Below, in pieces: positions 44,644 to 52,867 of a DNA stretch of 64,000 bases. Each line of letters opens with the position of its first letter. Position 1 is the stretch's first letter. The notes under the pieces are model-generated. The model had not been told where the DNA came from and did not search any database. It saw only the letters and a list, made by a program, of their open reading frames with translations. The position numbers were made by a program, and so were the translations under genes. Source of the stretch: Runella sp. (GTDB lineage: Bacteria > Bacteroidota > Bacteroidia > Cytophagales > Spirosomataceae); contig JALQYJ010000045.1 of assembly GCA_023254175.1 (NCBI GenBank), positions 1 to 64,000 of the forward strand. The letters are read 5' to 3'.

Positions 44644-46830
44644 ATGAAACACATTTCTGTACTAAGCCGCAAAATCTTGCGGCTCTACGTGATTTTGGCT
44701 GCTTTGACAGCACATGCCCAACCCCAACCCCGTTACAACCAACCTGCCACCGTTGACTGGTTGGTAACGCCCGTTACCCAAAAGGCCGAAGTCATTACCG
44801 AGGGGAAAAACATCATTTTGTACAACGGTCTGGTCAAACGCGTTTTTCGTATCGAACCTAACGTGGTTTGTATTGATTACAAAAATCTGTCGAATGGTCA
44901 ACAGCTTTTACGGGCCGTTAAGCCCGAAGCCAGAATTGTGGTCAACGGCAAAACGTACAATATCGGCGGATTGAACGGGCAAAAAGAAAATGCCTATTTG
45001 TTGCCCGAATGGGTCGATAAATTTATGGTAGGGAAAGAAGATTTTGTGGCAACGGGTCATTCAGTATCGGAAATAAAACCGTTTGTGAACTGGAAAGCCA
45101 ATTCGTGGGCGGCGAAGACGAAAGCCCCATCGGGCAAGGTGCTGTCCTTCCGTTACAAAGCGCAGGCCGAATCTGTAAAAGGGTTGGAAGTGACAGTAAA
45201 TTACGAGCTTTATGACGGTATTCCGTTGATTGTCAAGTGGGTATCTGTTGAAAATAAACAAAATGCCGAACTAAAACTGAACCGCGTGGTCAATGAGGTG
45301 CTGGCGTTGGTGGAAGAAGAAAGCGCCGTAGTGGGTAAGCCTGAAGAAATGAAAAAACAGCATGGCATGTACGTAGAAACTAACTACGCCTTCAACAACG
45401 CCATGCGCTACGATATCAGCGACCAGACCACACACTGGAAGATTGATTCGACTTATACCTCGCAGGTAAACTACAATTTTGAAACGCCCTGTTTGCTCGA
45501 AGTGTATCCCGAAAAAGCCCCAGGTATTGATCTCCAGCCCAATGAGGTGTTTAAATCAGTGCGGACGCATGAGTTGCTGATGGATAGTTATGACCGTCAG
45601 CGGCGAGGGCTGATGATTCGTAAAATGTACCGAACCGTGGCCCCTTGGACGACCCAAAATCCGATTTTTATGCACTTAGTGAGCAAAAATGATCAGGAAG
45701 TCAGAAGCTGTATTGACCAATGCGCAGCAACAGGTTACGAAGCGGTCATTCTGAGTTTTGGCAGCCACCTGAATATGGAAGACAGCACGGCCAAAAACAT
45801 CGCTCGCTGGAAGGAACTGGCCGATTATGCGCATAGTAAAAAAATTCTACTGGGGGGGTATTCACTGTTCAGTAGCCGCCGCATTAGCGACGAAGACGAC
45901 GTGGTGAACCCGAAAACGGGTAAACCAGGTGGTGCGTTTTTTGGCCATGCTCCTTGTTTTGGCAGTAAATGGGGATTGGCCTACCGCAATAAAATCAAGT
46001 ACTTTTTTGCAAAAACAGGGTTTGACATCTGGGAAAACGACGGCCCCTATCCGGGCGATGTGTGCGGGTCAACCGTACATCCAGGCCACAAAGGGCTGGA
46101 CGATTCGCAGTGGCGGCAAATGGAAATTCAGAAGGAACTCTACCGCTGGCTGAACGAAAGAGGTGTGTATATCAATGCCCCCGATTGGTATTTTCTGGAC
46201 GGTACGCACAAAATCGCTATCGGGTATAGGGAAGTGAATTTTTCGTTATCGCGTGAGCAGCAGCGTATTCTGAACCGTCAGAATATCCATGATGGAACGA
46301 TGGAGAAAACCGGGGCCATGAGTTGGGGCTTTGTGCCGTTGACACGTTATCAGGGCGGTGGCCCCGAGGCGGTGCTGGAGCCATTGAGTGAGCATTTGAC
46401 GGATTATGAGCAACTGATGGTGCAGTATTACGGGGCGGGCGTGCAGGCTTGTTACCGTGGTCCGCGCCTGTACGATACCGAAACCACCCGCCAACTAGTG
46501 TCGAAAACGGTGGCGTGGTACAAGCAGTACCGCGACATTCTGAACGCCGACATGATTCACCTACGCCGCGCCGACGGCCGCGACTGGGATGGTTTTATTC
46601 ACGTGGATCCGCAACAGAAAAATAAAGGCTTTTTAATGCTGTATAACCCGACCAAAGAGCGTATCACTCGGACAATCAACGTTCCGCTGTATTACACAGG
46701 CTTGACGTCGGCTGCTACGTTTAAAGAAAAAGGGGCAACGGCTCAAAAATACCCCCTCAACCGCAACTACGAAGTATCGTTGACCGTCACAATTGACCCT
46801 GAAAGTTATAAGTGGTTTACAGTGGAGTAA
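44644..46830 (+). CDS. Secreted glycosidase-like protein, probable clan GH-D (alpha-galactosidase-like)
   Basis: A 728-residue protein with an N-terminal signal (LYVILAALTAHAQ). A beta-sandwich region follows (about 30-300), then a barrel with ATGYEAVILSFGSHLNMED near 362 and KIKYFFAKTGFDIWENDGPY near 455. NERGVYINAPDWYFLDG is near 500. The Asp in FDIWENDGPYPGD is a candidate nucleophile as in GH27/36-type enzymes, but I cannot name the family surely. A C-terminal beta domain holds KGFLMLYNPTKERITRTI. It starts 17 bases after the GH31 stop and shares its high G+C and codon use, so the two came together and probably act on one plant glycan. Confidence 0.75.
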   Translation: MKHISVLSRKILRLYVILAALTAHAQPQPRYNQPATVDWLVTPVTQKAEVITEGKNIILYNGLVKRVFRIEPNVVCIDYKNLSNGQQLLRAVKPEARIVVNGKTYNIGGLNGQKENAYLLPEWVDKFMVGKEDFVATGHSVSEIKPFVNWKANSWAAKTKAPSGKVLSFRYKAQAESVKGLEVTVNYELYDGIPLIVKWVSVENKQNAELKLNRVVNEVLALVEEESAVVGKPEEMKKQHGMYVETNYAFNNAMRYDISDQTTHWKIDSTYTSQVNYNFETPCLLEVYPEKAPGIDLQPNEVFKSVRTHELLMDSYDRQRRGLMIRKMYRTVAPWTTQNPIFMHLVSKNDQEVRSCIDQCAATGYEAVILSFGSHLNMEDSTAKNIARWKELADYAHSKKILLGGYSLFSSRRISDEDDVVNPKTGKPGGAFFGHAPCFGSKWGLAYRNKIKYFFAKTGFDIWENDGPYPGDVCGSTVHPGHKGLDDSQWRQMEIQKELYRWLNERGVYINAPDWYFLDGTHKIAIGYREVNFSLSREQQRILNRQNIHDGTMEKTGAMSWGFVPLTRYQGGGPEAVLEPLSEHLTDYEQLMVQYYGAGVQACYRGPRLYDTETTRQLVSKTVAWYKQYRDILNADMIHLRRADGRDWDGFIHVDPQQKNKGFLMLYNPTKERITRTINVPLYYTGLTSAATFKEKGATAQKYPLNRNYEVSLTVTIDPESYKWFTVE

Positions 46831-46836
46831 GCCAGT

Positions 46837-46881
46837 TAGGGTATTATCAAAGGCTTCTTCGAAATCTTTGATGATACCCTA
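46837..46881. terminator. Long hairpin between the glycosidase gene and gatB
   Basis: A 16-base stem with one G-U pair: TAGGGTATTATCAAAG (46837-46852) and CTTTGATGATACCCTA (46866-46881), with a 13-base loop. It separates convergent genes and probably ends both. Confidence 0.75.
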
Positions 46882-46897
46882 AAACCTTTGTAATCGC

Positions 46898-48385
46898 TTA
46901 TGATAGTTTTTGCCCCAACAACTGATTGACAACTTTCGGGTCGGCACTGCCTTTTGATTTTTTCATCACTTCGCCCACAAACAAGCCCATCAAGCCTTTT
47001 TTGCCTTTTTTGAATTCTTTTACCTTGTCGGGCATCGACGATAGTACCTCATCCACAATGGTTTCCAGCGTACTAGCGTCGCTGTTTTGTAGCCAATTGT
47101 TTTGTTGGGCTACATCAAGTGGCGATAGGGATGGGTTTTCGAGCAATACAGGAAGTAGTTTTTGTGAAGCGGTGGTATGACTTACTTGATTGTTTTCTAC
47201 CAATTTAATGACTTCAGCCAATTGAGCGGGCGAAAGCGGGAACTGTTCGGCCGTAGCGTCGTTGTTTTCGTTAAGAAAAGTCTTTACGGGACCCAATACC
47301 CAGTTGGCAGCTGCTTGGTAATTACCACAAGCGACTCCGAGTGCTTCAAAGTAAAACGCTACGTCTTTCGTGTCAACGAGGGTAGTGGCATGGCCTGCCG
47401 AAAGCCCGTAGTGAGTCGTAAATTTTTCGAATAAAACGCGTGGCAACGGAGGCATTTCGGCTTGGATTTGGTTCATCCATTCGTCCGAAATAAATACGGG
47501 AGCCAAATCTGGTTCGGGAAAATAACGATAATCGTTCATCGTTTCCTTTAGTCTCATTCCCGATGTTTCGCCCGTTTCGGGGTCAAACATCCGTGTTTCT
47601 TGCAAAATCGTCTCACCGTTTTCCACCATTTGTACTTGACGAGGGAACTCGGTTTCTACGGCTTTCATGACGTTTCGGATGGAGTTCATGTTTTTGACTT
47701 CCACCTTTGTGCCAAATTCAGTTGCCCCTTTCAAACGCACCGAAATATTCAAATCGCAGCGGAGGGAGCCTTCTTCCATGTTGCCGTCGCAAATGTCAAT
47801 AAAACGAACTAATTGGCGAACGGCTGTTAAAAATGCACCCGCTTCTTCGGCCGAACCGATGCAAGGGTCGGTAACCATTTCAATCAATGGTGTTCCTGCG
47901 CGGTTGTAGTCAAGCAAGGTATCCGTAGCGGCGCCATCGTGTACCGATTTTCCCGCATCTTCTTCTAAGTGAATGTGGTGAATTTTTACCGTCCGTTCCA
48001 CGGTTTTTCCTGCTTTATCTTTGAACGAAACAGGAATCCCGCCGCCTACGCAGATAGGTGCTTTGTCTTGCGACAACTGATAGCCCTTTGGTAGGTCGGG
48101 ATAGAAGTAGTTTTTACGGTCAAAAATCGTGTGGCGAGTGATTTCGCACCCACACGCAATCCCCATCCGAACAGCGTATTCAACGGCTTTTTTGTTCAAT
48201 TTGGGAAGTGTCCCTGGGTGAGCCAATGTAATGACACTGATATTGGTGTTGGGCTCGCTACCAAATTGGTTGGCGTCGGCCGCAAAAATTTTGGTTTGGG
48301 TCTGTAACTGACAGTGTACTTCTAAGCCGATTACGATTTCGTATTTGGCGAGTACTTCGGGCGATAGTGTAAGCGTTTCGGTCAT
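46898..48385 (-). CDS. gatB: Aspartyl/glutamyl-tRNA(Asn/Gln) amidotransferase subunit B
   Basis: GatB is the kinase/tRNA-binding subunit of GatCAB, which turns misacylated Glu-tRNA(Gln) or Asp-tRNA(Asn) into the right aminoacyl-tRNA. The 495-residue protein has YEIVIGLEVHCQLQTQTKIF near 15, HPGTLPKLNKKAVEYAVRMG near 56, and FDRKNYFYPDLPKGYQLSQD near 85. EVKNMNSIRNVMKAVETE is near 235, and the C-terminal GatB/YqeY domain ends in ADPKVVNQLLGQKL. The ATG lies at 48385 and overlaps the end of a decayed gene by four bases. gatA and gatC are not in the window. Confidence 0.97.
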   Translation of the reverse strand: MTETLTLSPEVLAKYEIVIGLEVHCQLQTQTKIFAADANQFGSEPNTNISVITLAHPGTLPKLNKKAVEYAVRMGIACGCEITRHTIFDRKNYFYPDLPKGYQLSQDKAPICVGGGIPVSFKDKAGKTVERTVKIHHIHLEEDAGKSVHDGAATDTLLDYNRAGTPLIEMVTDPCIGSAEEAGAFLTAVRQLVRFIDICDGNMEEGSLRCDLNISVRLKGATEFGTKVEVKNMNSIRNVMKAVETEFPRQVQMVENGETILQETRMFDPETGETSGMRLKETMNDYRYFPEPDLAPVFISDEWMNQIQAEMPPLPRVLFEKFTTHYGLSAGHATTLVDTKDVAFYFEALGVACGNYQAAANWVLGPVKTFLNENNDATAEQFPLSPAQLAEVIKLVENNQVSHTTASQKLLPVLLENPSLSPLDVAQQNNWLQNSDASTLETIVDEVLSSMPDKVKEFKKGKKGLMGLFVGEVMKKSKGSADPKVVNQLLGQKLS

Positions 48386-48843
48386 TTATCTTCAGAATAG
48401 CCCCCCGTTACTTTTCGGAAGGCGTCGATGATTTCTACAAAGTGAAGGTTATCTGTATGCAAAATTAAAGAGTTCAGATAAACTATATCAGAATAGTCAT
48501 TAATAGTGGTATCTACTTTAACAAATTGGCTATGCTCTTGCCCGATGACGAGTATCAGCAGTGTCACAGATGTACACTATGATTCGTTGTTTATCCGAAA
48601 AAAATGATAGAATATTTCTGCAATTGTACGTTTTACTTTTTTGTCAAAAGGAACTAATGTTTCAGAACTTTTTTAATTACTTTAATAACAGATTCAAAAA
48701 CGTTTTCGGCAAAAGGATAAGATGTCTCAAATAGATAAGGGGTCGGTCTAAAGCTTACTGCATATAATGATACGATTACTCGTTTTAAAAAAGTAATAGG
48801 TATATTATACTACTTCGGCATAAAATGCATAATACTGATACAT
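48382..48843 (-). pseudogene. Multiply frameshifted gene, DUF6169-like by memory
   Basis: The minus strand from an ATG at 48843 gives MYQYYAFYAEVV, a stop, and YYFFKTSNRIII. Then in successive frames come YAVSFRPTPYLFETSYPFAE, SETLVPFDKKVKRTIAEIFY, IVYICDTADTRHRARA, and HSQFVKVDTTINDYSDIVYL. The last frame continues NSLILHTDNLHFVEIIDAF to the stop at 48382. Joined, these make one plausible protein of about 150 residues. It resembles small Bacteroidota proteins of the DUF6169 kind (judged from memory). About four frameshifts and one stop make it non-functional. Its last open frame of 61 codons overlaps the gatB start by four bases. Confidence 0.7.
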
Positions 48844-48877
48844 AGGAATATTACATTTTACGAATTTGGTTCACCAA

Positions 48878-48964
48878 TTACCGTTTGCTTGCCAACATTC
48901 TCTTCGCCCAAGCTACTGCCCGCTCTTGGCGCAACCGCCCCTCTGTTTTTGCGATAGTTTCCAT
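48878..48964 (-). CDS. 28-residue basic small protein, unknown
   Basis: The frame METIAKTEGRLRQERAVAWA, KRMLASKR is 28 residues, strongly basic and helical, and ends in TAA. It lies 20 bases downstream of a TATCTTTG element on the same strand (48984-48991) and just upstream of the decayed gene. It diverges from the acyl-CoA dehydrogenase. It may be an intact small gene or the first codons of a longer protein cut short. No family recognised. Confidence 0.5.
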   Translation of the reverse strand: METIAKTEGRLRQERAVAWAKRMLASKR

Positions 48965-48983
48965 GGTTTATTGGATTTTTTTA

Positions 48984-48991
48984 CAAAGATA
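48984..48991 (-). promoter_or_regulatory. Probable -7 element for the 28-residue gene
   Basis: On the minus strand TATCTTTG matches TAnnTTTG. A T-rich stretch, not a perfect TTG, lies about 19 bases upstream. The start would fall near 48977, 13 bases before the ATG. Confidence 0.45.
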
Positions 48992-49017
48992 GTGATTCGA
49001 GATGTAAAAATTTCTAA

Positions 49018-49068
49018 TAGTATGCTTGCATACTATTTTTGTTTGTTCTAATTTTGTATGCAAGCATA
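49018..49068 (+). promoter_or_regulatory. Promoter of the acyl-CoA dehydrogenase flanked by two identical operators
   Basis: The promoter reads TTG (49026-49028), 20 bases, TAATTTTG (49049-49056). The palindrome TATGCTTGCATA (49021-49032, extended to TAGTATGC/GCATACTA at 49018-49035) covers the -33 TTG. TATGCAAGCATA (49057-49068), its exact reverse complement, follows the -7 box without a gap and covers the transcription start. Centres are 36 bases apart. This is the layout of a strong repressor switch, probably of TetR type answering acyl-CoA. The regulator is not in the window. Confidence 0.8.
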
Positions 49069-49096
49069 ACAACAGTTTAAAAATTCCTGAAAAACC

Positions 49097-50908
49097 ATGA
49101 CAACCGTAGAAAACCGTGCCAGTATCAAAGGTGGAGAATTCTTGATTAAAGATACGGAAGCCTCTCAAGTGTTTATTCCCGAAGAGTTTACCGAAGAACA
49201 GTTGATGATTGCGCAATCGTGCCGTGACTTTTTAGCGACCGAAATTTGGCCACGCGTCGAAGAAATCGACAAGGCGAAGTCTCCTGAGCTGATGTCGTCG
49301 CTGCTCGATAAAGCGGGAGAGCTCGGCTTGTTAGGAACGGCAGTTCCTGAAGAGTACGGCGGATTTGGAATGAATTTTAATACCTCAATGCTCGTAGCGG
49401 AAGCGACGGGAGCGGGGAATTCGTTTTCGGTGGCCTTATCGGCACACACGGGAATTGGGACATTGCCCATCGTGTATTACGGAAACGAAGCCCAAAAATC
49501 GAACTACTTACCAAAGTTAGCTTCTGGCGAATGGAAAGCGGCATATTGCTTGACCGAACCCGATTCAGGCTCGGATGCCAATTCGGGTAAAACCAAGGCA
49601 GTGTTGAGCGAAGACGGAAAAAGCTACGTGCTCAACGGCCAGAAAATGTGGATTACCAACGGTGGCTTTGCTGACGTATTTATTGTATTTGCCAAAATAG
49701 ACGAAGGCGGAAAGACGGATAAAAACCTGACGGCTTTTATTGTAGAGAAGACATTTGGCGGCATTACGATGAACGAGCCTGAGCACAAAATGGGTATCAA
49801 AGGCTCGGACACGCGCCAAGTTTTCTTTAATGACTGCCATGTACCCGTTGAAAATATGCTTTCTGACCGTGGAAACGGATTTAAGATTGCCGTAAATATT
49901 CTCAACATTGGTCGTATCAAATTGGCGGCGGCTACCATGGGTGGAGCAAAACAAGTAGCGGCTCACGCGGTACAATATGCCAACGAACGTAAGCAATTTG
50001 GAACAGCGATTAGTAATTTTGGTGCTATTAAACACAAATTAGGTGAAATGGCCGTGAAATTGTACGCTACTGAGTCGGCTTCATACCGGGCAGGGCAAAA
50101 CATTGACGATGCCATTGAAGACCTCAAAGCAAAGGGCGTAAACGACGCCGAAGCGAAATTGAAAGCTTTGGAGCAATTTGCGATTGAGTGCGCGATGATG
50201 AAAGTACACGGCTCCGAAGTGCTTGATTTTGTGGTAGATGAAGGTGTTCAAGTATATGGTGGTATGGGCTTTTCGGCCGATGCGCCTATGGATCGTGCGT
50301 ACCGCGATAGCCGTATCAATCGCATTTTTGAAGGGACTAATGAAATCAACCGCATGTTGACGGTCGATATGCTTCTCAAGCGTGCCATGAAAGGTGAACT
50401 CGATTTGATGGGGCCTGCGATGACGGTGGCCAAAGAAATCATGTCGATTCCTGATTTTAGCAGCACCGACGATGAAGTGCCGTTTGCCGCCGAGAAAAAA
50501 GTGATTAAAAACTTGAAAAAAGCGGCGTTGATGGTAGCGGGGGCGGCCGTTCAGAAGTTTATGATGAAGCTTTCGGAAGAGCAAGAAATCTTGATGAACG
50601 TAGCCGATATGGCCATCGAAATTTATGCGGCAGAATCAGCCGTTTTGCGTACCGAAAAACTGATAGGTATTAAAGGTGAAGCGGCTTGTGCGTTGCAGAA
50701 AGACTTGGCGATGTGCTACTTGCATGAGGCCGTTGAAAAAGTAAACAGCGCAGGAAAAGCGGCAATTATGTCGTTTGCAGAAGGTGATGAACTTCGCGTG
50801 ATGCTTATGGGCTTGAAACGTTTCACGAAAATTGAGCCGTTCAATACCAAAAATGCGCGTCGTCGTATTGCTGATGCGATGATTGCGGAGAACAAATACG
50901 TTTTTTAA
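49097..50908 (+). CDS. Acyl-CoA dehydrogenase
   Basis: A 603-residue flavoenzyme that makes the first double bond in fatty acyl-CoA breakdown. It has the usual core (about 25-420) with YCLTEPDSGSDANSGKTKAV and LNGQKMWITNGGFADVFIVF. MGIKGSDTRQVFFNDCHVP and VQVYGGMGFSADAPMDRAYR follow, then RIFEGTNEINRMLTVDMLL. The C-terminal extension of about 170 residues is helical, as in very-long-chain types. It has a strong promoter with two operators (49018-49068) and a terminator at 50954-50986, so it is a single-gene, tightly controlled unit. Chain length cannot be read from sequence. Confidence 0.94.
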   Translation: MTTVENRASIKGGEFLIKDTEASQVFIPEEFTEEQLMIAQSCRDFLATEIWPRVEEIDKAKSPELMSSLLDKAGELGLLGTAVPEEYGGFGMNFNTSMLVAEATGAGNSFSVALSAHTGIGTLPIVYYGNEAQKSNYLPKLASGEWKAAYCLTEPDSGSDANSGKTKAVLSEDGKSYVLNGQKMWITNGGFADVFIVFAKIDEGGKTDKNLTAFIVEKTFGGITMNEPEHKMGIKGSDTRQVFFNDCHVPVENMLSDRGNGFKIAVNILNIGRIKLAAATMGGAKQVAAHAVQYANERKQFGTAISNFGAIKHKLGEMAVKLYATESASYRAGQNIDDAIEDLKAKGVNDAEAKLKALEQFAIECAMMKVHGSEVLDFVVDEGVQVYGGMGFSADAPMDRAYRDSRINRIFEGTNEINRMLTVDMLLKRAMKGELDLMGPAMTVAKEIMSIPDFSSTDDEVPFAAEKKVIKNLKKAALMVAGAAVQKFMMKLSEEQEILMNVADMAIEIYAAESAVLRTEKLIGIKGEAACALQKDLAMCYLHEAVEKVNSAGKAAIMSFAEGDELRVMLMGLKRFTKIEPFNTKNARRRIADAMIAENKYVF

Positions 50909-50953
50909 GTTATAACATAGTTACACTTTAAGCTAAGAACCAACTAGTTGACT

Positions 50954-50986
50954 AAGCCGTGCCTCGATTGAAGCACGGCTTTTTTT
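50954..50986. terminator. Intrinsic terminator between acyl-CoA dehydrogenase and purN
   Basis: Perfect 9-base arms AAGCCGTGC (50954-50962) and GCACGGCTT (50973-50981) are followed by a T-run to 50986. The purN stop at 50985 lies at its edge. Confidence 0.85.
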
Positions 50987-51557
50987 ATGAGTTTAACAAC
51001 TTTTCCACTACTTCGGGAAAATGTTTGTGTTCCAATACTTGCACTTTTTTAGCAACGTCCTCGGGTGTATCGGTGGCAGCTATGGGGCAAGAAGCTTGGA
51101 AAATAATGGCTCCTTCGTCGTAGCGCTCGTTGACGTAATGAATTGTAATGCCCGACTCCGTCTCTTGGGCCGCTACCACGGCTTCGTGTACAAAATGACC
51201 GTACATGCCTTTTCCGCCGTATTTGGGAAGAAGCGCAGGGTGAATATTGACAATTTTATTAGGAAACGCCTGTACCATACTTTCGGGAATCAGCATCATA
51301 AAACCCGCCAAAACTACAAGGTCAATGGCCTGTCCTTGGAGAAGTTCAACGATGCGAGCCGACTCGTAAAAAGTGGTACGGTCGAATACCAACACAGGAA
51401 TATGCAAACGCCGTGCGCGAGTAATGACGCCCGCTTGGGGGTTATTGGTAAGAATCAACGAGATTTCGACCTGGCTATCGGAAGCAAAGTGTTCAGCGAC
51501 TTTTTCGGCATTAGAACCCGAGCCCGAAGCAAAAATGACAATACGTTTTTTGGTCAT
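50985..51557 (-). CDS. purN: Phosphoribosylglycinamide formyltransferase
   Basis: PurN transfers a formyl group from 10-formyl-tetrahydrofolate to glycinamide ribonucleotide, the third step of purine synthesis. The 190-residue protein has RIVIFASGSGSNAEKVAEHF at the N terminus and LAGFMMLIPESMVQAFPNKI near residue 88. The catalytic region NIHPALLPKYGGKGMYG (Asn, His) follows, and then ITIHYVNERYDEGAIIFQAS with the Asp. The ATG at 51557 is chosen. A TAACTTTG element on the minus strand (51588-51595) would put the transcript start near 51580, excluding an upstream codon at 51590. Confidence 0.96.
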   Translation of the reverse strand: MTKKRIVIFASGSGSNAEKVAEHFASDSQVEISLILTNNPQAGVITRARRLHIPVLVFDRTTFYESARIVELLQGQAIDLVVLAGFMMLIPESMVQAFPNKIVNIHPALLPKYGGKGMYGHFVHEAVVAAQETESGITIHYVNERYDEGAIIFQASCPIAATDTPEDVAKKVQVLEHKHFPEVVEKLLNS

Positions 51558-51587
51558 GAGAGGTGAGTTTTGAGTTACTTGCGGGGG

Positions 51588-51595
51588 CAAAGTTA
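51588..51595 (-). promoter_or_regulatory. Probable -7 element for purN
   Basis: On the minus strand TAACTTTG matches TAnnTTTG and lies 30 bases before the purN ATG. No TTG is seen at -33. Confidence 0.4.
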
Positions 51596-51617
51596 GCTTT
51601 TTGTAGGGGTTGATGCG

Positions 51618-51640
51618 CTATTATCCCCTATTATCCCCTA
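51618..51640. repeat. Short tandem repeat CTATTATCCC
   Basis: Two perfect copies of CTATTATCCC followed by CTA lie between purN and the gene at 51683. The repeats are within the divergent promoter region. Confidence 0.6.
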
Positions 51641-51657
51641 ATTTCGCTGTCAGTTGT

Positions 51658-51665
51658 TAGTTTTG
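51658..51665 (+). promoter_or_regulatory. Possible -7 element for the gene at 51683
   Basis: TAGTTTTG matches TAnnTTTG. It lies 17 bases before the ATG, so the leader would be very short. No clear -33 TTG. Confidence 0.35.
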
Positions 51666-51682
51666 ATTGATTTTTAGACACT

Positions 51683-52867
51683 ATGCAAATTCTTGAAGTA
51701 GGTACCGATGCTGCCCGTCAGCGCGAGTTTTTGATGTTACCCGTGCGGCTTTATAAAAATAATCCCTACTGGATTCGCCCGCTCGATAAAGATGTGGAGG
51801 ATACGTTTAACCCCGATAAAAATAAATATTTTAAGGGGGGTGCTTGTGTTCGGTGGATTGCCGTGGACGACCAAGGACAAACCATCGGAAGGGTGGCGGC
51901 GTTTGTCAATGAAGGAACGGTTTTGAAAGGAAACGACCAACCGACGGGCGGAATGGGCTTTTTTGAGTGCATCGAAGACCAAGCAGCGGCGTTTGCACTT
52001 TTTGATACCTGTAAAAATTGGTTACAAGCACAAGGCATGGAGGCCATGGATGGGCCGATTAACTTTGGTGAACGCGACCGTTTTTGGGGACTCTTGACCG
52101 AAGGTTTTGACAAAGAACCTCTTTACGGAATGGGGTATCATTTGCCGTATTATCAAACATTCTTTGAAGCGTACGGATTTCAGACCTACTTTAATCAGCT
52201 TACGTTCTTTTTGCACATGTTCAAAGAGAAATTTATGGAGCGGGTAAATGGGGTGTTTTTTGAACGGGCAGAGCGGATTTTAAACAACCCAGAGTTTTCG
52301 TTTAAACACATTGACAAAAAGCAGTTGGGGCAGTTTGCGGAAGATTTTCGGACAGTATACAACAAGGCTTGGGCAAAACACCTCGGTACCGACGATATGA
52401 CTTCCGAAAAGGCAAAAGCTATTATGCAGCGGATGAAGCCCATCATGGACGAGGAAATGATGTGGTTTGGTTACCGAGAAGGCGAACCCGTGGCGTTTTT
52501 TATTATGCTTCCTGAACTGAATCAAATCTTCAAACACGTCAATGGTAAATTAGATTTGATAGGGAAAATCAAGTTTTTGTACCACAAACTACGGAAGAAA
52601 AACTACAAAGCCTTCGGGGTGATTTTTGGCGTTATTCCTGAATATCAAGGTCGAGGAGTGGAGTCGGCTATGGCCCTTGCTTCAACGCGCGTGGCTTGGC
52701 GTCCTAATTACCAATATACCGAACTTGAATTTAACTGGATTGGCGATTTTAATCCTAAAATGGTGCGCTTTGCGGAGCTTTTGGGAGGCGTACCTCATAA
52801 AATTCATACGACTTACCGTTACCTTTTTGACCGTACTAAAGCGTTTAAACGTCATCCGATGATTTAG
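51683..52867 (+). CDS. GNAT-like conserved protein (YghO-like), function unknown
   Basis: A 394-residue cytoplasmic protein with a split acetyltransferase-like fold. The N-terminal half has VRLYKNNPYWIRPLDKDVED and GPINFGERDRFWGLLTEGFD. The C-terminal half has the acetyl-CoA loop type VIPEYQGRGVESAMALAST and the strand YTELEFNWIGDFNPKMVRFA. It resembles E. coli YghO and many Bacteroidota proteins of the same length. No substrate is known to me. It ends in a strong terminator at 52908-52950. Confidence 0.8.
   Translation: MQILEVGTDAARQREFLMLPVRLYKNNPYWIRPLDKDVEDTFNPDKNKYFKGGACVRWIAVDDQGQTIGRVAAFVNEGTVLKGNDQPTGGMGFFECIEDQAAAFALFDTCKNWLQAQGMEAMDGPINFGERDRFWGLLTEGFDKEPLYGMGYHLPYYQTFFEAYGFQTYFNQLTFFLHMFKEKFMERVNGVFFERAERILNNPEFSFKHIDKKQLGQFAEDFRTVYNKAWAKHLGTDDMTSEKAKAIMQRMKPIMDEEMMWFGYREGEPVAFFIMLPELNQIFKHVNGKLDLIGKIKFLYHKLRKKNYKAFGVIFGVIPEYQGRGVESAMALASTRVAWRPNYQYTELEFNWIGDFNPKMVRFAELLGGVPHKIHTTYRYLFDRTKAFKRHPMI

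Follow-up and report, generated by a model that had tools for sequence, protein, structure and literature searches.

In Proteobacteria and Firmicutes the control of beta-oxidation is known in detail, and the fatty-acid-breakdown regulons known elsewhere are governed by FadR (GntR family), PsrA, FadR or FadP (TetR family) and LiuR (MerR family). These systems share with the one predicted here a single acyl-CoA-type regulator over a dispersed beta-oxidation regulon, but their regulators belong to other protein families than the MarR-type candidate described below (P0001), and they are not known to share its operator. The SlyA operator, TTAGCAAGCTAA, is a 12-bp palindrome with an AA centre that belongs to a MarR/SlyA-type regulator; its arms, however, are not TATGC, and P0001 stays at 32 bits where the cut-off for SlyA is 120. 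Within the MarR family, the CouR/FerC-type repressors (p-coumaroyl-CoA, feruloyl-CoA) have in common with P0001 the fold and the role of catabolic repressor, the latter predicted here, but they act in aromatic catabolism, whereas the targets here are beta-oxidation and ETF genes and the ligand is presumed to be an acyl-CoA. CouR is a MarR protein released by a CoA thioester (PMC4737184 and PMC5487221, each in part), and its structure is a PDB fold match to P0001 (TMq 0.67, 18–19% identity) with only distant sequence similarity. FabT of streptococci is likewise a MarR-family regulator of lipid metabolism and a fold match (6jbx), and it responds to an acyl thioester (PMC5487221, in part), but it controls the synthesis of fatty acids and not their breakdown, and P0001, with 21 bits, is below the cut-off of 200 for FabT.

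Our search of the open-access literature returned no description of the site or of the regulon in Bacteroidota, and a prior description in subscription papers or regulon databases, which lie outside that scope, is possible. Four open-access papers contain either of the 12-mers reported here, and all four are unrelated as far as title and start of abstract tell. What we describe is a candidate for a new regulator–operator pair of an already known kind, well supported by comparative evidence.

A putative operator pair at the fadE promoter

The window, a stretch of 64,000 nucleotides from Runella sp., carries TATGCTTGCATA at 49021–49032 and TATGCAAGCATA at 49057–49068, on either side of the promoter of a 603-aa FadE-type acyl-CoA dehydrogenase (49097–50908, plus strand; NCBIfam NF058590 FadE, 817 bits, cut-off 600). 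The two are the same site in opposite orientations, with arms TATGC and GCATA and a centre of TT or AA, and lie 36 bp apart from start to start. The initial annotation had placed these 12-mers around a promoter, and its reading of the letters is exact: a TTG at 49026–49028 (plus strand) lies inside the first copy, and the −7 element TAATTTTG (49049–49056, plus strand; consensus TAnnTTTG) begins 16 bp past the distal core and abuts the second copy. The putative distal operator extends beyond its core to a 22-bp near-palindrome, AATAGTATGC-TT-GCATACTATT (49016–49037), that overlaps the −33 region, and the TTG at its centre is the presumed −33 element, an assignment based on the TT-centre orientation in relatives and on the −33/−7 consensus. 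The putative proximal operator lies over the presumed start site; neither operator is assigned a strand. The consensus is TTTG/TANNTTTG, and the −33 motif is reported to be much less evident than the −7 box in F. johnsoniae (PMC6847099, in part). Elsewhere the −7 box is placed at −12 to −5 (PMC9723704, in part), a position from which transcription would start at about 49061, with the distal core at about −40 to −29 and the proximal core at −4 to +8. A second TAnnTTTG, 1 bp past the distal site, was considered as the −7 box and rejected, as it is missing in five relatives (L033, L034, L036, L038, L040) where the 16-bp box persists; one locus (L039) has the 1-bp copy only, without the 16-bp copy.

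On the other side of the intergenic region, the divergent small ORF (48878–48964, minus strand) encodes METIAKTEGRLRQERAVAWAKRMLASKR in 28 codons. In several relatives, where found, it runs to about 47–84 codons, with a shared N-terminus and a C-terminal part that varies, and by this comparison the window copy looks truncated. Between this ORF and a GatB-like ORF (46898–48385, minus strand) there are about 480 bp (48400–48880) without an ORF of at least 80 codons, possibly the site of a past rearrangement.

Conservation in front of the orthologous gene had been named as a check on the operator, and the site is indeed kept there. The relatives set counts 39 genomes, that of the window among them, and 38 of these have a FadE protein. 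Among 30 fetched FadE loci an exact TATGCNNGCATA lies within 300 bp upstream in 25, a one-mismatch copy in 1 and none in 4. Two of the four siteless loci come from genomes without the MarR gene discussed below (G029, G032); in G024 that gene stands directly 5′ of fadE, in G028 it and fadB precede fadE by about 5 kb, and in both genomes the site is in front of MarR. Eight same-genus promoters, once aligned, show no variation in the −7 box or in the 22 bp of the distal site, and four of them have lost the proximal site. The proposal that two operators wrap the promoter therefore stands for the window, where both sites are real, but not as a general rule, since in 7 of 13 FadE loci of the same genus the proximal copy has degenerated beside an intact upstream copy. 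We take the distal site to be the conserved core and the symmetrical wrap to be one version of the arrangement. Two sites with up to one mismatch occur in 16 of the 30 FadE ortholog loci, at spacings of 36, 39, 48, 51 or 52 bp; these have no clear common phase, and we propose no looping or helical phasing between paired sites.

Abundance of the site and the genes behind it

Within the window alone the excess is weak, with two matches at up to one mismatch against a shuffle mean of 0.46, a number reached by 7 of 100 shuffles. Across the whole assembly (4,850,967 bases, 199 contigs), TATGCWWGCATA occurs exactly 11 times and its reversed control once. All 11 sites are centred on AA or TT and none on AT or TA, though the pattern permitted them, and a first-order (dinucleotide) model built on 275 kb of this assembly predicts 0.56 AA/TT-centre sites. 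A random density in the genome, which the initial annotation regarded as fatal to an operator, is thus not what we find (11 sites against about 0.6). Leaving the centre free still gives 11 exact sites genome-wide, against 2 in the control and a model expectation of 3.2. At one mismatch, the any-centre search returned 66 matches against 165 in the reversed control and the excess is gone, so we treat one-mismatch sites as noise unless they lie in the promoter of a relevant gene; only AA/TT-centre ones among the matches listed were fetched, those of thiolase and MarR were kept, and others may exist.

The 11 exact sites form 10 loci, and at six of them a beta-oxidation or ETF gene adjoins the site in promoter position, as the proposed search near fatty-acid genes had anticipated. 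These genes encode the FadE of the window, two more acyl-CoA dehydrogenases (597 and 385 aa), an 800-aa FadB-like 3-hydroxyacyl-CoA dehydrogenase/enoyl-CoA hydratase, EtfB (etfB-etfA) and an enoyl-CoA hydratase, whose gene faces a divergent PLP-enzyme-like gene across the site. Two further loci are lipid-plausible, with a gene of the fatty-acid-hydroxylase superfamily at 22 bp and one for an alpha/beta hydrolase at about 210 bp. The remaining two have no evident lipid link, the site lying before an LptC-like gene in one and downstream of a sugar isomerase gene in the other; the exact sites without an evident lipid gene are L012:4001-4012 and L018:4001-4012. Upstream of a thiolase gene, at 80 bp, stands TCTGCAAGCATA, which departs from the site by one mismatch; in G017 the thiolase ortholog (81% identity) is preceded by an exact copy (L253).

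The same classes of genes stand behind the site in relatives. We drew 40 further site loci from seven genomes, excluding FadE and MarR sites and leaving out those of other genomes (e.g., G020, mostly AT centres), and a beta-oxidation, ETF or AMP-binding gene starts within 450 bp in 29; the products match beta-oxidation or ETF proteins of the Runella genome in 27 cases and are of the AMP-binding acyl-CoA-synthetase type in 2. The others comprise three short-chain dehydrogenases (two scanned with Pfam), three 4Fe-4S proteins (two scanned, the third assigned by length and N-terminus) and five loci with nothing relevant. The site therefore stands in front of several genes of the beta-oxidation pathway, in 6 of 10 loci of this genome and 29 of 40 in its relatives. 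At four loci from several genera (L020, L226, L238, L257), etfB is divergent from a gene for a short protein (about 102–109 aa, TPR-like by eye) with the operator in the shared gap, and the same sort of short protein adjoins a site at L241.

A MarR-family gene paired with the site

The genome encodes seven TetR_N genes and has nine MarR_2 matches at E ≤ 0.001, four of them above the cut-off. Scanning 16 TetR/MarR loci over about 1.5 kb on each side at up to one mismatch yielded one site, TATGCAAGCCTA, upstream of a MarR-family gene. This gene encodes 156 aa (P0001) and lies at 104342–104809 of contig C158, another contig than that of the window. The product has a MarR domain (PF01047, 39.3 bits, cut-off 24.6), and among the named MarR equivalogs of NCBIfam it matched 14 families, all under their cut-offs, the best being the Saro_0803 type with 42 bits against 200. 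An AlphaFold model from a 21-row alignment has a mean pLDDT of 88.8 and a pTM of 0.74, and among the 50 PDB fold matches listed, all of which we take, in part by title, to be MarR-type, are MarR, MexR, SarZ, CouR with p-coumaroyl-CoA and FabT with DNA. In the recognition region, GMEPRSLTRxLKxLE, residues E61, S64 and R67 are invariant in 21 aligned orthologs, as expected if the orthologs read one operator.

The pairing of gene and site recurs in many other genera. The scan of named genomes kept 80 of 591 confirmed loci, and the 250 bp in front of MarR contain an exact copy in 71, a one-mismatch copy in 6 and neither in 3; among 15105 random 250-bp stretches drawn from these loci, 22 hold an exact copy and 51 one with up to one mismatch. 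A ranking of the 1024 possible five-base arms (gap of 2 bases) over the 80 upstream regions put TATGC first with 71, and the runner-up had 9. In a sample of the phylum the MarR was present in 36 of 198 genomes, all 36 in the class of the window, and 13 sampled genomes of that class were without it; the more distant carriers look flavobacterial. Thirty of these phylum loci were fetched, three from genomes shared with the relatives set, and the upstream site is exact in 25 and has one mismatch in 5. FadB is among the first two ORFs behind MarR in 65 of the 80 named loci and 28 of the 30 phylum loci, the exceptions among the 80 being Runella, Emticicia and a few unplaced genomes. Across the phylum, GC-rich centres make the number of TATGCNNGCATA copies per genome noisy, and within the class several genomes without the MarR hold as many sites as MarR-bearing ones (e.g., 11 in G163), so at this range we limit inference to MarR-proximal sites.

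The relatives set allows a comparison by presence and absence. The MarR is carried by 32 of its 39 genomes, own included, and all 32 have a site with up to one mismatch before fadE or the MarR operon (29 exact). Among the six FadE-bearing genomes without this MarR, one has the site before fadE and five do not (G025, G026, G029, G032, G036); in the seventh MarR-less genome (G031) no FadE passed the threshold. G032 has distant MarR-type matches, with no site near the best one. The one clear exception is G005, of the same genus, which has both fadE sites and for which a looser search gave no more than weak MarR-type matches, with no site near the best; it is a 570-contig draft of 97% completeness, and the MarR may be missing from the assembly or have been lost. 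At least two WW sites are found in 26 of 32 MarR-bearing and 1 of 7 MarR-less relatives (Fisher p = 0.0017, which ignores kinship and is descriptive only). As a rule, counts over related genomes are non-independent, and kinship lowers their weight.

A palindrome with up to one mismatch precedes MarR in 77 of the 80 named loci, 30 of 30 in the phylum sample and 23 of 30 among the relatives. For the last of these the site lies within 220 bp (12 exact), and the seven MarR genes without it include that of L107, which has no site upstream. The 12 MarR loci of the genus Runella (L083–L094) have no exact copy, nine with one mismatch and three with none, and here the gene adjoins neither fadB nor fadE. 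In this genus (L067:4343-5870, L083–L094, L113–L119) marR stands apart from fadB and is followed by a TetR gene before an apparent efflux operon, its own operator being imperfect or lost. Judged from these sequences, the MarR gene's own site seems to be decaying where the gene stands apart from fadB. In more distant families (L200–L202, L212, L213, L217) there are two sites with up to one mismatch upstream of marR, 29–30 bp apart, unlike the spacing at fadE.

Operator, promoter and the proposed control of fatty-acid breakdown

At fadE and marR, operator and promoter appear to be built as one element. Read in the sense direction, the most distal site has a TT centre at 24 of the 26 FadE loci that have a site with up to one mismatch, and in 17 of the 26 the −7 box lies 16 bp past the distal core, as in the window. 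Among the 71 MarR loci the first exact site has a TT centre (sense) in 51, and a TAnnTTTG box lies at 16 or 17 bp in 39, with no exact box in 24. From the TT centre and the spacing to the −7 box at these promoters, we conclude that TATGC-TTG-CATA supplies the TTG of the presumed −33 element. The centre is also TT in 36 of 47 oriented regulon sites, where the distance to the box varies and an exact TAnnTTTG is absent within 60 bp downstream in 29; given these and the 24 MarR promoters without an exact box, only some of the promoters allow a firm placement of the −33 element. At some promoters the site lies 19–25 bp upstream of the −7 box, and at four loci (L013, L014, L237, L239) it lies just downstream of a TAnnTTTG box; sites over the −33 and sites just behind the box both fit repression.

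We propose that TATGC-NN-GCATA is the operator of this MarR acting as a repressor, and put the probability of this pairing at roughly 0.83. Protein–DNA binding, and repression rather than activation, are both inferred here, from computed results on the sites themselves, their genome-wide excess, the genes downstream, their conservation and the pairing with the MarR gene. A MarR dimer would place one winged helix on each arm, and dimers seated at the −33 region (distal site) and at the start of fadE (proximal site) would exclude RNA polymerase. The same MarR would repress fadB, fadA, etfBA, other acyl-CoA dehydrogenase genes and the enoyl-CoA hydratase gene, and in most lineages it would repress its own gene as well. 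As fatty acids enter the cell and are activated, acyl-CoA would bind the MarR, free the DNA and turn the pathway on; that the ligand is an acyl-CoA seems to us rather probable. What computation supports is an operator pair around the FadE promoter that belongs to a fatty-acid regulon, in a layout from which repression is predicted.

Other readings of the sites can be weighed against this one. Chance, or another role such as a hairpin or a methylation site, would agree with the modest excess in the window alone, where shuffles reach two one-mismatch sites 7 times in 100, but it is contradicted by the genome-wide excess, the gene content, the fixed distance to the −7 box and the MarR pairing. 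A scan of 46000–52000 against Rfam gave no match at the gathering threshold, so an RNA element was rejected, and this likewise speaks against a hairpin; we regard this reading as negligible. The initial annotation had guessed at a TetR-type acyl-CoA sensor, and TetR control of fatty-acid genes is known from other organisms, Sulfolobus among them (PMC6449355, in part), with seven TetR_N genes to choose from in this genome. None of those seven has a site of its own at up to one mismatch, however; the sole such site precedes the neighbouring MarR gene, and the TetR gene near it lies about 0.4 kb behind MarR, in front of what by eye is an apparent efflux cluster. Genera with fadB after MarR also keep the site at MarR. 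A TetR sensor is on these grounds very improbable, and the guess is to be replaced by the MarR; the underlying observation is sound and more general than had been proposed.

A further alternative overlaps with our explanation in keeping the same MarR, and makes it either an activator or a repressor released by something other than acyl-CoA, such as free fatty acid or a redox signal. Activators are known among the MarR proteins. Acyl-ACP tightens the hold of FabT on DNA (PMC5487221, in part), and at the promoters with a spacing of 19–25 bp the site lies further upstream of the −7 box. Against activation, the window sites and many of the fadE and MarR sites lie on the −33 or the +1, where a bound dimer would exclude the polymerase, and the four sites just downstream of a TAnnTTTG box point the same way. 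We consider this alternative unlikely, though a good deal less so than a TetR sensor.

It is rather probable, on our reading of the comparative data, that these Bacteroidota have a master switch for fatty-acid breakdown in one MarR-type repressor whose TATGC-NN-GCATA operator is kept over much of the class, that the TTG at the operator's centre doubles as the −33 element in fadE and marR promoters, and that operator and promoter have been one since the common ancestor of the carriers. By similarity the lineage of the regulon is the genus Runella, and control by this MarR is proposed to hold widely in the class as well. A putative operator and a candidate regulator can now both be named for a large group of bacteria, and the definition of the site predicts targets genome by genome. 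In Flavobacterium psychrophilum, beta-oxidation genes are reported to be induced by mucus and plasma, in a paper whose main text does not mention MarR (PMC9723704). If the proposal is true, the MarR regulon would be a candidate explanation for that induction, provided the species carries this MarR, and it would also offer a fatty-acid-inducible promoter for genetics in Bacteroidota.
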